Shown here in pieces: positions 10,899 to 48,038 of a stretch of DNA of 64,000 nucleotides. The stretch is from Lactiplantibacillus plajomi. GTDB lineage: Bacteria; Bacillota; Bacilli; Lactobacillales; Lactobacillaceae. The position numbers and the translations under genes are program-made. The notes below the pieces were generated by a model. The model was not told the origin of the DNA and searched no databases. It worked only from the letters and a program-made list of their open reading frames with translations. The stretch is from contig NZ_BJDZ01000010.1 of assembly GCF_005405405.1 (NCBI RefSeq), positions 1 to 64,000 of the forward strand. Reading direction: 5' to 3'. Every line of letters begins with the position of its first letter. Positions within the stretch are counted from its first letter, which is position 1.

Positions 10899-11119
10899 AA
10901 AAAAACTCGTCCTAATGATTAATCATTAAGGACGAGTTTCCCCGCGGTTCCACCTTAAGTTGGCTACCTGACGTAACCCGCTTAGTAGTCGATAACGCGA
11001 CTAACCGTGACTGCAGCTTGCACCGCAACCGTTGCTCCGAGCGCACTTTCGCGTACCTTCTAACCATGCTTACACTATCCATGGTCGCTACTTTAAAAAA
11101 ATACGTTACTCTTCTCATC
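10899..11119 (-). promoter_or_regulatory. T-box riboswitch upstream of oppA-like gene
   Basis: Minus-strand leader with the T-box core GGTGGAACCGCGG (10942-10954) and an upstream AGAAGAGTAA motif typical of the stem I specifier region. The terminator stem AAACTCGTCCT...AGGACGAGTTT (10899-10939) ends in a run of seven T just before the oppA ribosome binding site. T-boxes sense uncharged tRNA and antiterminate. The specifier is not certain: reading the 3' side of the loop as CGAAAGTGCG gives GUG (Val) as my best, weak guess; UGC or AGU are alternatives. Confidence 0.92.
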
Positions 11120-11189
11120 AAAGCTTAATTATTATGGTTATATCTTAATCAAGTGAGGAATAAAAAGCAATTAAGTTGTTTCGGTCGCA

Positions 11190-18630: not shown

Positions 18631-18659
18631 TTGACAGTGATTATTTGAATCGTTATAGT
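18631..18659 (+). promoter_or_regulatory. Promoter of aromatic leader/aminotransferase operon
   Basis: Consensus TTGACA (18631-18636), exact 17-bp spacer, TATAGT (18654-18659). The transcript would start about 18666, some 25 nt before the leader peptide. Confidence 0.88.
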
Positions 18660-18689
18660 TAGATTAACAATTGATGAGGAGCTAATGTT

Positions 18690-18752
18690 ATGTCATTACC
18701 GTTGAATCACGTTAAAACTTCAACTAGTTTTTACTTTTGGTATTTTCGCTAG
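18690..18752 (+). CDS. Aromatic leader peptide (attenuation), 20 residues
   Basis: A 20-codon open frame starting MSLPLNHVKTS and ending FYFWYFR, with six consecutive aromatic codons (TTT TAC TTT TGG TAT TTT) before the penultimate CGC and a TAG stop. GAGGAG lies 8 nt upstream of the ATG at 18690. An alternative ATG at 18685 is only 3 nt from that site and gives a six-residue frame. The position after a consensus promoter and before a terminator, upstream of an aminotransferase operon, is the layout of a ribosome-sensing leader such as pheL, but that function is inferred. Confidence 0.85.
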   Translation: MSLPLNHVKTSTSFYFWYFR

Positions 18753-18923
18753 TGTTTGTGCCGGCTGCTTAGGTGCAAACACGAATCCGATGTTTGCATC
18801 GATGCGGTTGCCAAAAGCTTTTTGTGATTGAACGGCGCCCATGGATGTTTGAAAATTCCAAGGGTGGCTAAAATAGTTTTTTCAGTGACACACCCTTTGA
18901 ATTTTCAAGGGGTGTGTTTTTTT
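18752..18923 (+). promoter_or_regulatory. Attenuator with alternative RNA folds
   Basis: Segment A GTGTTTGTGC (18752-18761) can pair with B GTGCAAACAC (18773-18782), while TGCAAACA within B can instead pair with TGTTTGCA (18791-18798). Downstream, TTGAAAATTC plus AAGGGTG (18849-18866) can pair with CACCCTT plus GAATTTTCAA (18891-18908), an 18-position antiterminator with one mismatch. The competing terminator is ACACACCCTTTGAA / TTCAAGGGGTGTGT (18888-18917), followed by T run to 18923. A ribosome stalled on the aromatic codons would cover A. How the B/C switch feeds the antiterminator needs folding. Confidence 0.8.
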
Positions 18924-18974
18924 ACGCCCACCACGTGCCGCCCGCACCAACTAATTAAAATTGGAGGAACCAAT

Positions 18975-20168
18975 ATGTCAATTAGTCCAGCAACCTTAGT
19001 CCAACAAATGAATCATGAAATCGGTGCGATTCAACCGTCCGATATTTTAGCGTTCAATGCTGAAATTGCTAACATTCCGGGGATTGTCCGCCTAACCCTT
19101 GGTGAACCGGATTTCAATACCCCCGAACACGTGAAGCAAGCGGCCATTAAAAGTATCGAAAATAACGAAAGCCACTACGCACCGTCAAACGGGACGTTGG
19201 CATTGCGGACGGCAGCAGCCGATTTCTTGGCAAAGAAGTACGACGTCCATTACAATCCGAAAAGTGAAGTCATTATCACGGCTGGTGCGACTGGCGGGAT
19301 CTACACCGCGCTCAGTTCGATTTTAAATCCCGGTGACGAAGTCTTGATTCCGACCCCGATTTTCCCACTTTACATCGCGATTGCGAAGTTGAACGGCGCA
19401 ACGCCGGTCTTCATGGATACGTCTAAAAATGACTTCGTGTTGTCACCGGAGATGCTCAGCGAAACCTTAGCTGCTCACCCGAAAACTAAGGCGGTGGTGT
19501 TAAACTTCCCGTCCAACCCAACTGGTGTGACCTACCGTAAGGACGACTTGAAGGCGTTGGCAGCCGTTTTAGCTGATAAACCGATTTTCGTGTTATCCGA
19601 CGAAATTTACAGTGAGTTGACGTACGGTGACGCCCACGTGTCAATTGCTAGCTACTTACCCGAACAGACCATTTTACTTAACGGGGTTTCCAAGTCGCAC
19701 GCCATGACCGGGTGGAGAATCGGGATTATGTGTGCACCGAAAGAAATTACCGCGCAGCTGGGTAAAATTCACCAGTTTACGGTCACCTCAACGACCACCA
19801 ACGCGCAAGCGGCCGCGGCCGAAGCGCTCAGCAACGGCATCGATGACGGCCAGACGATGAAGCAGGAGTACCAGCAACGGCGTGATTACCTTTACGCGGC
19901 GTTAAACAAGATCGGCTTCAAGTCGGCGAAACCAGAAGGGGCCTTTTACCTGTTCAGTAAAATTCCGGCGGGCTTGCCGCAAGATAGCATGGCATTCTGC
20001 CGTGAATTAGCACACGAAGCGCGGGTCGCGTTAATTCCTGGCAGCTCATTTGGCCCTGGTGGTGACGGGTACGTCCGCATTAGTTACGCGGCGTCGATGG
20101 CCGATTTGAAGACGGCGGTTGAACGGATGAGCGAATACGTGGCAAAAAAATCAGCGGAGGCAAAGTAA
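18975..20168 (+). CDS. araT: Class I aminotransferase, probably aromatic
   Basis: A 397-residue PLP-dependent aminotransferase of fold type I. Landmarks are LTLGEPDFNTPEHV, ITAGATGGIYTAL, NFPSNPTGVTY, LSDEIYSELTY and the PLP lysine motif GVSKSHAMTGWRIG. These enzymes swap an amino group between an amino acid and a 2-oxo acid in the cytoplasm. The start is ATG 18975 behind GGAGGA; the frame is open further upstream, but that would read through the terminator hairpin. The aromatic leader peptide points to phenylalanine, tyrosine or tryptophan as substrate. It overlaps the dehydrogenase gene by one base. Confidence 0.88.
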   Translation: MSISPATLVQQMNHEIGAIQPSDILAFNAEIANIPGIVRLTLGEPDFNTPEHVKQAAIKSIENNESHYAPSNGTLALRTAAADFLAKKYDVHYNPKSEVIITAGATGGIYTALSSILNPGDEVLIPTPIFPLYIAIAKLNGATPVFMDTSKNDFVLSPEMLSETLAAHPKTKAVVLNFPSNPTGVTYRKDDLKALAAVLADKPIFVLSDEIYSELTYGDAHVSIASYLPEQTILLNGVSKSHAMTGWRIGIMCAPKEITAQLGKIHQFTVTSTTTNAQAAAAEALSNGIDDGQTMKQEYQQRRDYLYAALNKIGFKSAKPEGAFYLFSKIPAGLPQDSMAFCRELAHEARVALIPGSSFGPGGDGYVRISYAASMADLKTAVERMSEYVAKKSAEAK

Positions 20169-21163
20169 TGACAAAAATTTTAATGTACAGTGTACGTGAT
20201 GACGAACAAGCAGCAATCAAAGCGTGGGCGCAGGCTAATGACGTCCAGGTCGATACCAACGACTTGGAATTTCACCCGCAAACGGCCGACCTGGCTAAGG
20301 GTTATGACGGCCTCGTCATTCAGCAACGGAGTGCGATCGGTGACGACCCGAGCGTTTACCAAAAGTTGGCTGATATGGGGCTCAAACAGTTAACCAGTCG
20401 GACGGCCGGGGTCGACACGATCGATATTCCAGCCGCCAAGGCTGCCGGGTTAACGGTGACCAACGTGCCGGCATACTCGCCCAACTCAGTGGCTGAAATG
20501 GCGGTTGCCCAAACGATGCGCCTGATTCGCAACCTTGAGTTGTTCGATAGTCGGATTGGCCAACAAAACTTCCAGTGGGCCGGGTTACAAGCACGTGAAA
20601 TCCGCTCGCTCACCGTTGGAATCATTGGTGCCGGCCGGATTGGTGGTACCGCGGCGCGCTTATTCCACGGTCTGGGTGCTAAGGTGATTGCCTATGACGT
20701 GGTGCGCCATCCCGAATTAGAAGACGTGCTGACTTACGTTGACACCAAGGAAGACTTGTTGAAGCAGGCAGACGTTGTTGACTTACACGTTGACTTGAAC
20801 GAGACTTCCAAAGGCTTGATCGACGGACCGGCGTTGAAATTAATGAAATCCGACGCCTTCATCGTCAACGCTTCACGTGGGCCGGTCATCGTCACCGACG
20901 CACTGGTTGCCGCTTTAAAGGCCGGTGAAATTGCCGGGGCTGCCCTGGATACGGTTGAAGGCGAACAGGCGCTCTTCAACCAGAATCACCAGGGGGAAGT
21001 GTTGCAGGATACCAACGTGGCTCAGTTGATGCAGATGCCGAACGTGATTATCACGCCGCACGTGGGCTTCTACACGAACTTAGCCGTTAAGAACATGGTC
21101 GATATTAGTTTAGACGACGTGTTGACGATTATTAAGGGTGGTCAGACCGACCACGCGTTCTAA
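20168..21163 (+). CDS. D-2-hydroxyacid dehydrogenase (D-LDH family)
   Basis: A 331-residue NAD-dependent D-2-hydroxyacid dehydrogenase. The nucleotide site is GIIGAGRIGGTAARL; the catalytic trio is Arg in NASRGPV, Glu in LDTVEGE and His in TPHVGFYT. The family reduces 2-oxo acids to D-2-hydroxy acids. Translationally coupled to the aminotransferase (ATG shares the last base of its stop), so the pair could turn aromatic amino acids into D-phenyllactate-type acids via the oxo acids. It may be D-lactate or D-hydroxyisocaproate dehydrogenase rather than aromatic-specific. Confidence 0.88.
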   Translation: MTKILMYSVRDDEQAAIKAWAQANDVQVDTNDLEFHPQTADLAKGYDGLVIQQRSAIGDDPSVYQKLADMGLKQLTSRTAGVDTIDIPAAKAAGLTVTNVPAYSPNSVAEMAVAQTMRLIRNLELFDSRIGQQNFQWAGLQAREIRSLTVGIIGAGRIGGTAARLFHGLGAKVIAYDVVRHPELEDVLTYVDTKEDLLKQADVVDLHVDLNETSKGLIDGPALKLMKSDAFIVNASRGPVIVTDALVAALKAGEIAGAALDTVEGEQALFNQNHQGEVLQDTNVAQLMQMPNVIITPHVGFYTNLAVKNMVDISLDDVLTIIKGGQTDHAF

Positions 21164-21214
21164 ATCTTCCTGAGTGGGCCAGGAAAAACTGAAGTGAAGT
21201 ACAACTAATTTAAT

Positions 21215-21258
21215 CGGAGCACGACGTACACGGATACGTCGTGCTCCGATTTTTTTTT
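21215..21258 (+). terminator. Terminator of aminotransferase operon
   Basis: Perfect 14-bp stem CGGAGCACGACGTA / TACGTCGTGCTCCG, 6-nt loop, A then eight T. Confidence 0.95.
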
Positions 21259-46145: not shown

Positions 46146-47702
46146 TTGGCAAAAACGGACACCGCGTCATTCGACTCAATTCTTGTGTTGGATTTTGGGA
46201 GTCAATATAACCAATTGATTACCCGGCGCATTCGTGATTTCGGTGTTTATTCGGAATTGCTTCCAAATACGATTTCCGCTGAAGAAATCAAAGCCCGCCA
46301 CCCCAAGGGGATTATTTTCTCCGGTGGCCCTAACAGTGTTTACGATGATGGCGCCTTTCGGGTTGATCCCGAGATTTTCAACTTAGGCTTACCTATCTTG
46401 GGAATCTGTTACGGGATGCAGTTGATGACTTACACGCTGCCTGGCGGTAAGGTCGAATCAGCTGACAACCGTGAATACGGCAAGGCGAACATCCAAGTGA
46501 CCAGCGACGCGTCGACTTTATTTGACGATACGCCGAAGGAACAGTCGGTTTGGATGAGCCACGGTGACTTAGTGACCGCGGCTCCGGACGGCTTTGACGT
46601 GGTTGCAACGTCGAAGAACTGCCCAATCGCGGCCATTCAAAACGTGGATAAGAAGTTCTACGGTATTCAATTCCACGCCGAAGTTCGCAATACGGACTAC
46701 GGTAACGATATTTTGAAGCACTTTGCGTTTGACGTTTGCCAAGCGGAAGCTAACTGGTCGATGGACGATTTCATCGATATGCAAATCGAAAAGATTCGTG
46801 CCGAAGTTGGCGATAAGAAGGTCCTGCTCGGGCTATCCGGTGGGGTCGACTCCAGTGTCGTTGGTGTGTTATTACACAAAGCCATCGGGACGCAATTAAC
46901 CAGTATTTTCGTGGACCACGGGCTGCTCCGGAAGGGCGAAGCCGAACAAGTGATGGCGAGTCTGGAAGGCAAGTTTGGGCTGAACATCATTAAAGTGGAT
47001 GCCAAGGACCGTTTCTTAAGCAAACTCGCCGGGGTCAGTGATCCTGAAAAGAAACGGAAGATTATTGGTAACGAATTTATCCAAGTCTTTGACGAAGAAG
47101 CCACGAAACTGAACGGGATGGAATTCCTGGCGCAGGGGACGTTGTACACCGACGTCATCGAAAGTGGGACTTCCACCGCACAAACCATTAAGTCCCACCA
47201 TAACGTTGGGGGCTTACCAGAAGACATGCAGTTCAAGCTGATTGAACCGTTGCGGACACTCTTTAAGGATGAAGCCCGTGAATTGGGTGAAAAGCTGGGC
47301 ATGCCTTCCGACCTCGTTTGGCGGCAACCGTTCCCAGGTCCCGGTCTCGGGATTCGGGTCATCGGTGAAATTACCGAAGACAAGTTAGAAATCGTCCGCG
47401 ACAGTGATTACATCCTGCGTGACGAAATTAAGAAGGCCGGCCTCGACCGCGATATCTGGCAATACTTCACCGTCTTACCAGGGATTCGCTCCGTTGGGGT
47501 CATGGGTGACGGCCGGACTTACGATTATACGGTCGGGATCCGCGCCGTGACGTCGATCGACGGCATGACCGCCGACTTCGCCCGGATTCCGTGGGACGTC
47601 TTGCAAAAGATTTCCGTGCGGATCGTAAACGAAGTCGACCACGTGAACCGCATCGTGTACGATGTGACGAGCAAGCCGCCTTCGACCATTGAATGGGAAT
47701 AA
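46146..47702 (+). CDS. guaA: GMP synthase (glutamine-hydrolysing)
   Basis: A 518-residue GMP synthase, converting XMP plus glutamine to GMP. The N-terminal glutaminase has GICYGMQLM (Cys) and IQFHAEV (His/Glu); the ATP-pyrophosphatase motif is [11 protein letters not shown]; the C-terminal dimerisation region has [18 protein letters not shown] and ends PPSTIEWE. Start is TTG 46146 with AAGGAG 8 nt upstream; an in-frame GTG at 46137 overlaps the RBS. The last codons form one arm of the element's 13-bp direct repeat, so integration here keeps the guaA product intact. Confidence 0.97.
47689..47701. repeat. attL core, 13-bp direct repeat
   Basis: TTGAATGGGAATA spanning the last four guaA codons and most of the stop codon. 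Identical to 59911-59923; flanking bases differ on both sides. Confidence 0.88.
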
Positions 47703-47769
47703 AAGGTACATGTAAATTGAACCCGGAATGTTGATTTAGCGGCATTTTCGGAAGATACAAAGGATACGA

Positions 47770-47844
47770 TTGGCGGGGATATTGTTACGTTCCCCGCCAA
47801 AATCCCCGCCAAGTTTGGGCCGAATGAGGGCTGATTGGCGGGGA
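47770..47844. repeat. Left integrase arm-type sites (candidate)
   Basis: TTGGCGGGGA at 47770-47779 and 47835-47844, complement TCCCCGCCAA at 47791-47800 and 47803-47812. The middle pair is spaced 12 bp apart, the same as at the right end. As RNA these form hairpins, one followed by TTTTT, so they may also stop guaA transcription. Confidence 0.6.
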
Positions 47845-48038
47845 TTTTTGTTAACCAGTCATTAACGATCAGGCCATCTCATGTCATGCGACCAGAATTC
47901 GGAAGTTAAGCGTTCTGTAAAAACATAAGGCGTGAGAGCACTCAAATATTTGTTGAGTGAAAGATTACGTAAGGACGAATATTCACTGAACAAATCGAGT
48001 AAAATGAAACTAATAAGAATCCATTGGAGGATAAGCTG
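47845..48038. other. Upstream region of hsdM
   Basis: No gene seen. It contains ACTCAA...TTGAGT inverted repeat (near 47938-47956) and an AT-rich stretch upstream of the hsdM RBS, so it probably includes the hsdM promoter, but I cannot fix the -10 and -35. Confidence 0.4.

Follow-up and report, generated by a model that had tools for sequence, protein, structure and literature searches.

Leader region of the aminotransferase-dehydrogenase operon

What controls an operon encoding a class I aminotransferase (AT) and a D-2-hydroxyacid dehydrogenase (DH), and to which signal it responds, is the question raised by a leader region in the 64,000-nucleotide stretch of DNA analysed here (the window). 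The region lies between a divergent HAD-type hydrolase gene and the AT gene that follows it. The source genome (2.76 Mb) is close to Lactiplantibacillus, and AT is 94% identical to its L. garii counterpart. Against PRK07309, which we take to be a model of aromatic aminotransferases, AT scores 571.6 bits, just below the cut-off of 576, and its closest solved structures are 4my5 ('putative amino acid aminotransferase') and 1dju ('aromatic aminotransferase'). DH is closest to 4xkj (E 5e-126), identified in passages of one paper as the D-LDH of Sporolactobacillus inulinus CASD and as the template for modelling D-LDH1, an enzyme with a strong phenylpyruvate preference (PMC9618312). An aromatic role for the AT-DH pair is likely.

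A short open reading frame with a ribosome-binding site, a run of aromatic codons and an intrinsic terminator are all present ahead of the operon (Table 1). The near-consensus promoter described in the initial annotation is confirmed, with TTGACA and TTATAGTT unchanged across 14 aligned leaders. That annotation also described a 20-codon frame, preceded by a strong ribosome-binding site, that ends in six aromatic codons; frame, binding site and codons are as described, except that one Arg codon separates the run from the stop. The 222 nt between leader stop and AT hold several hairpins and a T-run terminator. Only 1 of 23 SD-preceded short ORFs in the window has six consecutive aromatic codons, and none of ~6,571 such ORFs in 100 first-order Markov simulations does.

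Table 1. Features of the AT-DH operon and its leader (window coordinates)
Feature	Coordinates	Strand	Evidence
Sigma-70 type promoter, TTGACA-17 nt-TATAGT	18631..18659	+	11/12 consensus matches
Leader Shine-Dalgarno, GAGGAG	18676..18681	+	unchanged across 14 aligned leaders
Leader peptide MSLPLNHVKTSTSFYFWYFR*, 20 codons	18690..18752	+	leaders at 60/63 AT-DH loci
Control codons Phe Tyr Phe Trp Tyr Phe (six aromatic)	18729..18746	+	residue counts, 70 unique leaders
Segment 1 (codons Y-F-W), partner 1'	18733..18741	+	covariation
Segment 2, pairs with C if ribosome-free	18752..18762	+	duplex energy, covariation
Segment C, pairs with 2 or D	18772..18783	+	duplex energy, covariation
Segment D, pairs with C or (putatively) 2'	18788..18807	+	covariation for C:D
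Segment 1', pairs with aromatic codons	18810..18818	+	covariation
Segment 2' (CGCCCATGGATG), anti-antiterminator 5' strand	18836..18847	+	unchanged in 14 aligned leaders
Segment 3', antiterminator 5' strand	18849..18866	+	17/18 pairs with 18891-18908
Intrinsic terminator	18887..18923	+	14-pair stem (hairpin 18887-18918) + T run
Class I aminotransferase (AT), PRK07309-like, PF00155	18975..20168	+	profile + structure comparison
D-2-hydroxyacid / D-lactate dehydrogenase (DH)	20168..21163	+	profile + structure comparison
Terminator 3' of operon	21212..21251	+	17-pair stem + T run

Conservation of the leader at aminotransferase loci

In the initial annotation, a lack of conservation of peptide or pairings in relatives was to speak against attenuation; both are kept, and the helices covary. 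The leader is present at all of the first 13 relative loci, ending in FWYFR* at 12 and in LWYFR* at L016. Across 89 Lactobacillaceae AT loci, which were given or picked from the top of a match list with 235 of 301 family genomes matching, it occurs at 60 of 63 loci with DH downstream versus 8 of 26 without DH; L033, L107 and L142 were hand-added to this count after the leader-collecting pattern had missed them, as it missed L016. At 6 of the 8 leader-bearing loci without DH, by eye, an EIIC-like membrane protein gene adjoins AT. The AT-DH loci lacking the leader are L039, L040 and L132; in the first two (genus g27) a membrane-protein gene appears by eye to lie directly 5' of AT with no leader between. 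A looser scan of leaderless AT loci in the family found no aromatic run, and outside the family neither leader nor DH was found at any of 26 AT loci. An 8-residue TTG frame at one of the outside loci (L158) was considered as an AT leader and taken as chance.

The collecting pattern kept 78 regions (70 unique) from 16 genera. Because it accepted only Phe at position 3 of the run and only aromatic residues at position 6, and limited other positions, residue counts over the 70 unique leaders are conditional on it: Tyr occupies position 2 in 64, Trp position 4 in 54 and Phe position 6 in 69, and where Trp is missing from position 4 the residue is Arg (8), Tyr (4), Lys (3) or Leu (1). The L016/L033 leader (RFALWYFR) has Leu at position 3. 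The run is aromatic at all six positions in 51 leaders, at five in 16 and at four in 3; outside it 29 of 1,016 leader residues are aromatic, 22 of these immediately before the run. Each of the 70 unique regions was assigned a terminator, 66 by script (6 of them re-trimmed by hand) and 4 by hand. A 25-base DNA pattern, with 3 mismatches allowed, matched 2 of 61 family genomes: conservation of the RNA sequence itself is limited to two Levilactobacillus and to genomes near the window's genus. The codon pattern TWYTWYTTYTGGTWYTTY, found in 201 of 397 genomes, was set aside as an estimate of prevalence because many of 30 loci lie in the rpoB 5' region or have no leader frame. The aromatic codon pattern of L065-L082 (genus g4), for instance, falls mostly in the rpoB 5' region, outside leader frames. 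At L048 and L087 imperfect inverted-repeat insertions (CCTAGAGCTAAG...), twice in L087, separate leader and AT, and by eye they resemble small mobile repeats.

Alternative pairings and covariation

The RNA of positions 18666-18930 folds 6.7 sd below dinucleotide shuffles, with 0 of 200 shuffles as good. Its helices form a chain, 1:1', 2:C, C:D, D:2', 2':3', 3':4 and 4:5, with duplex energies of -11.1, -15.7, -15.3, -11.3, -15.6, -17.2 and -22.6 kcal/mol, respectively. Among these, D:2' is a putative pairing suggested by its duplex energy and by comparison by eye. The structures named in the initial annotation are recovered here: two overlapping hairpins (18752-18762 with 18772-18782, and 18772-18783 with 18788-18800, the latter with its core at 18774-18781 and 18791-18798), an 18-position antiterminator with one mismatch, and a T-run terminator (Table 1).

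The aromatic codons double as a helix strand: Y-F-W is base-paired to a strand further downstream, 1' (ACTTTTGGT with GCCAAAAGC or similar), which lies 0-12 nt past the stop in a short form of the element and 49-66 nt past it in a long form, the best match lying elsewhere at L048, L109, L114 and L121. In the Trp-codon columns of 1:1', TA changes to CG or AT, and GC to AT, TA or CG. In leaders with Arg, Lys, Leu or Tyr in place of Trp, strand 1' has usually altered along with the codon, giving compensated pairs such as TTTCGT with ACGAAAG, TTTAAG with CTTAAGG, TTTTAT with ATAAGAG and TTTTTG with CAAAGAG. The signal at a single locus is weak, a shuffled codon strand reaching the observed score in a median 8% of shuffles, and what counts for 1:1' is therefore that its position is constant and that the alignments support it.

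In the short form (16 rows hand-chosen from 37 leaders), 1:1' plus 2':3' is paired in 97.6% of cells with 14 two-sided changes, and the excluding helix 2:2' in 94.3% with 5; in each case 0 of 500 shuffles did as well, and slid registers gave 21-52% paired. In the long form, for which 11 of 33 leaders and 4 aro sites were hand-chosen as the 15 rows, 1:1' plus 2:C is paired in 96.4% of cells with 20 two-sided changes, and the excluding C:D in 87.5% with 5, again with 0 of 500 shuffles as good in each case and 27-53% paired in slid registers. By the measure of further pair types, 2:2' and C:D do not stand out from shuffles, 86 and 46 of 500 shuffles, respectively, reaching the observed value, as compared with 6 and 4 of 500 for 1:1' plus 2':3' and 1:1' plus 2:C. 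These counts are tempered by the kinship of the rows, because of which they are not independent events, and by the naming of the helices from the same alignments that were used to score them. The short-form alignment omits, among others, leaders of genera g8, g17, g19 and g20, whose post-stop strands differ by eye, and the long-form alignment omits L125 and most near relatives of the window; in g8, g17 and g19 a third helix arrangement seems, by eye, to exist. Mutually exclusive helices have been kept in evolution in both the short and the long form.

Known RNA families at and around the site

When the whole window was compared with 4227 Rfam families, the amino-acid operon leaders of the E. 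coli type went unmatched, and the only match was to rli38, elsewhere. That match, to a Listeria sRNA, lies at 47688-47851 (+) with 62.9 bits against a gathering score of 49, and a T-box match at 10925-11130 (-) scores 89.4 bits, just under the 93-bit cut-off. At the loci of 20 relatives no Rfam family reached its cut-off anywhere. Two low-scoring hits at the terminator, to a PyrR site (25.5 bits, cut-off 54) and to a piece of rliD (19.5 bits, cut-off 50), were taken as chance hairpin matches.

The strand CCAAGGGTGGC resembles part of what we take to be the T-box motif, yet this T-like stretch varies among relatives (AGGGTGG, AGGGCGG, GGGGTGT), and common as T-boxes are in the same genome (33 matches, 12 over the cut-off), none of the 33 falls here. 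Identity with the T-box family (RF00230) was rejected because its model gave no match at the site, where no other Rfam family reaches its cut-off either. That the element is a T-box, or some other tRNA- or metabolite-binding riboswitch, we regard as extremely improbable, even though the TrpX operon of S. suis is described as T-box controlled in parts of PMC9382623.

Distribution and downstream genes

Two covariance models were used to follow the element through other genomes. R1, built from the short form only and with no Lactiplantibacillus row, matches the window's own genome once, at the site in question (E 1.4e-4), and 83 of 301 family genomes. R2, built from the long form with the window row included, likewise gives a single own-genome match, even with the E limit relaxed to 10, and has matches in 147 of 301 family genomes, which belong to 23 of 40 genera. 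The initial annotation knew of few leader-peptide attenuators in this family; by the R2 count this element is not rare there. Nor is it confined to the family, a notion overturned by R2 matches elsewhere in Lactobacillales: across the order 104 of 198 genomes match, 95 of them listed outside the family, with matches listed in families f2, f3, f4, f5, f7 and f9 and none listed in f6 or f8. Since the models contain the codons, the aromatic content of their matches is partly built in.

Forty further family matches were chosen by hand rather than at random, and one of them, L210, stands before AT. Of the remainder, 12 lie ahead of shikimate operons led by transketolase, aroE or DAHP synthase, 11 ahead of a TrpX-like ABC transporter, 7 ahead of a gene for a PF13303 membrane protein and 5 ahead of an MFS gene with chorismate synthase behind it; two more precede an APC permease, one a prephenate-dehydratase-like gene and one a D-2-hydroxyacid dehydrogenase gene on its own. 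In all, 29 of these 39 stand before shikimate, chorismate-synthase or prephenate-dehydratase-like genes or the TrpX-like transporter. When representatives were checked against profiles, DAHP synthase, AroB and AroC each exceeded the cut-off; AroE and transketolase were recognised by Pfam domains on 90-residue starts, the TrpX-like representative scored 313.9 bits (below the cut-off of 390), the prephenate-dehydratase-like one matched its profile weakly, and the permease was nearest to a branched-chain transporter model, below its cut-off. The remaining downstream genes were assigned by likeness of their sequence starts. No aromatic role is known for the PF13303 protein or the permeases; both are tied to aromatics via the leader and, in the case of PF13303, also via the position of its gene next to AT at six loci. 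At 17 loci outside the family the element precedes, by eye, an ABC transporter (14), aroE (2) or chorismate synthase (1), with leaders such as QLNNFYFSYFR.

The codons vary with the downstream gene. All 12 leaders before common-shikimate genes contain codons for Phe, Tyr and Trp, and none of the 11 before the TrpX-like transporter contains a Trp codon; elsewhere Trp codons occur in 1 of 4 leaders before MFS genes, 5 of 7 before PF13303, 0 of 2 before APC permeases and 55 of 70 before AT (counts that leave out L217, L221, which by eye has no Trp codon, and L234). The codon sets thus follow the pathway product and therefore speak for codon reading. Two further observations concern individual loci. 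At L231 (624-2096, +) an MFS transporter with a C-terminal chorismate mutase type II domain (PF07690 + PF01817) is encoded directly 5' of chorismate synthase, behind a Phe/Tyr leader. In the TrpX-like ABC operons of L227-L230, L233, L236 and L237 the leader has no aromatic codons except those for Phe (FAFSFFFR), and this suggests that the substrate is Phe, not Trp (the profile was run on L227 only).

One Rfam family does coincide with the element. In a second set of 20 loci, RF02863 (sRNA_2410) exceeds its gathering score at L255, L259, L264 and L265, coinciding at all four with the R2 element and aligning in register with the window, although the window itself scores 20.8 bits, below the gathering score of 61. 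At L265 (1408-1589, -) and L264 (1508-1684, +) the coinciding element stands before a TrpX-like operon, and at L265 the match begins within the last codons of the leader. The family differs in being classed as an sRNA. Parts of PMC5593968 describe its RNA in E. faecium, detected by RNA-seq and Northern blot, as 195 nt long with two transcripts. An RNA visible on Northern blots is what would be expected of a terminated transcript, and it could also belong to a mainly trans-acting small RNA in which the leader frame is incidental. We think the latter very improbable: SD-preceded leader frames occur at 39 of 40 fetched family matches (19/20 and 20/20) and at 15 of 17 outside, most downstream genes belong to one pathway, and the folds are mutually exclusive. 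Rather than an sRNA, RF02863 probably represents a leader that regulates in cis, and we read its RNA as an attenuator transcript in terminated form.

Folding with the ribosome in place

The effect of a ribosome on the leader was modelled by removing the RNA beneath it, with its edge set 12 nt past the first base of the A-site codon. For the short form (37 leaders), the antiterminator has a mean probability of 0.73-0.75 while the A-site is on any of run positions 1-5, the Trp codon giving 0.75. The mean is 0.58 with no ribosome, 0.52 with the ribosome at the stop and 0.57 when it stands four codons ahead of the run. The Trp-codon state exceeds the stop state by more than 0.05 in 22 of the 37 and is lower in 1. 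L049 shows the contrast clearly, with a value of 0.62 without a ribosome, 0.11 and 0.39 with the ribosome upstream, 0.76 on the codons and 0.03 at the stop.

Under equilibrium folding the long form of the window showed no switch: wherever the ribosome was placed, C:D dominated. Across the 33 long-form leaders, too, placing the ribosome on the Trp codon or at the stop makes no difference (7 up, 6 down; p=0.52). With 2:C locked, which assumes ordered folding, the antiterminator lies above the stop state in 16 of 33 and below it in none; at L094, L095, L098 and L103 the script held another helix than the one intended. Modelling of the long form is the weakest part of the attenuation case. The full-length terminator is favoured in nearly all ribosome states (means 0.90-0.93), so the outcome depends on kinetics.

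Proposed regulation

Leader conservation, covarying exclusive folds and aromatic gene contexts support the ribosome-mediated attenuation proposed in the initial annotation, and the element is very probably a transcription attenuator read through its aromatic codons. We infer the following order of events. When charged tRNA-Phe, -Tyr or -Trp runs short, a ribosome translating the leader would stall on the control codons (18729-18746), covering segment 1 and leaving 2 free to pair with C. Formation of 2:C would free D for 2', which would release 3' to pair with the terminator arm 4, and with this antiterminator formed RNA polymerase would read through into the AT-DH operon. With sufficient aromatic amino acids, the ribosome would reach the stop and cover 2, so that C:D could form, 2' would hold 3' and the terminator would form. 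Without translation 1:1' would form, and the default would also be off. In the short form of other genera, which is without C and D, segment 2 would pair directly with 2'; C and D would insert two steps, and the sign of the response would therefore be kept. Phe and Tyr are likelier than Trp to be the common signal because Trp is often replaced by a non-aromatic codon (54 of 70 leaders keep Trp).

Induction by excess, through a nascent peptide that arrests in the tunnel on sensing a free aromatic amino acid or a keto/hydroxy acid, strikes us as improbable. A QLN-like stretch is kept in many leaders via synonymous codon changes, which codon reading alone does not demand, and an AT-DH pair could be catabolic, but by eye no residue is invariant over the gene classes (FAFSFFFR, FYYYWFV, FSYYWSM, YYFGFYYFR), and the same element stands ahead of biosynthetic shikimate genes. 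In addition, TnaC-like arrest of the ribosome on the stop codon would make the antiterminator of the short form less probable.

Under attenuation by codon reading, the AT-DH operon would be one member of an aromatic-amino-acid supply regulon. The earlier suggestion that the aminotransferase serves aromatic amino acid supply fits with the occurrence of the same element before shikimate-pathway genes. The window's own genome has no match to the DAHP synthase family PF00793, which is present in 11 of 14 control genomes, so that the species is probably unable to make chorismate by this route, and its AT-DH operon may serve salvage or interconversion rather than de-novo synthesis. We tentatively entertain, as possible rather than probable, a broader reading in which one attenuator class with domino-like helices and product-tuned codons operates across Lactobacillales beside T-boxes, and in which the AT-DH operon of this genome salvages imported keto and D-hydroxy acids. 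The salvage part of that joint reading is offered with the same reserve: Phe, Tyr or Trp would be made from keto acids and from D-hydroxy acids such as phenyllactate, reversing the usual phenyllactate-forming view.

If these readings are true, many food and gut bacteria whose sensing of amino acid supply is ascribed mainly to T-boxes also have widespread aromatic leader-peptide attenuators, leader codons predict substrates (a TrpX-like ABC transporter behind a Phe-only leader probably not being a Trp transporter), and an Rfam 'sRNA' is re-read as an attenuator. They would also give a handle on phenyllactate and indolelactate metabolism, which is relevant to food preservation and gut health.

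Comparison with known systems

Our searches of open-licence PMC papers turned up no description of an aromatic leader-peptide regulon in Lactobacillales. Passages of PMC9382623 describe a Trp T-box at trpXYZ of S. suis, which is alike in that a TrpX-type ABC operon is regulated by tRNA charging and differs in being a T-box RNA without a leader peptide; the 25 TrpX-like operons found here (11 in the family, 14 outside) have leaders with aromatic codons and, by eye, without Trp. Leader-peptide attenuation in Firmicutes is represented by His leader peptides, described in portions of PMC9413887 and PMC2965389 as standing in place of T-boxes, which concern histidine genes in other lineages. The uORFC-13-1 motif of Acholeplasma is likened here by description: as set out in part of PMC8632094, a Phe-containing uORF precedes a terminator and the aromatic-pathway gene aroF (DAHP synthase), and attenuation was proposed; it differs in lineage, in comprising 24 sequences, and in a U run that codes for at least one Phe.

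The E. coli trp and pheA attenuators combine a short translated leader, control codons, and an alternative antiterminator and terminator. The window element likewise has a leader, control codons and an alternative antiterminator and terminator; unlike those systems, it mixes Phe, Tyr and Trp codons, its control codons double as a helix strand, and its long form adds two more helices. The mechanism is known in kind; the multi-step chain, the codon strand that doubles as a helix strand and the breadth of occurrence set this variant apart.
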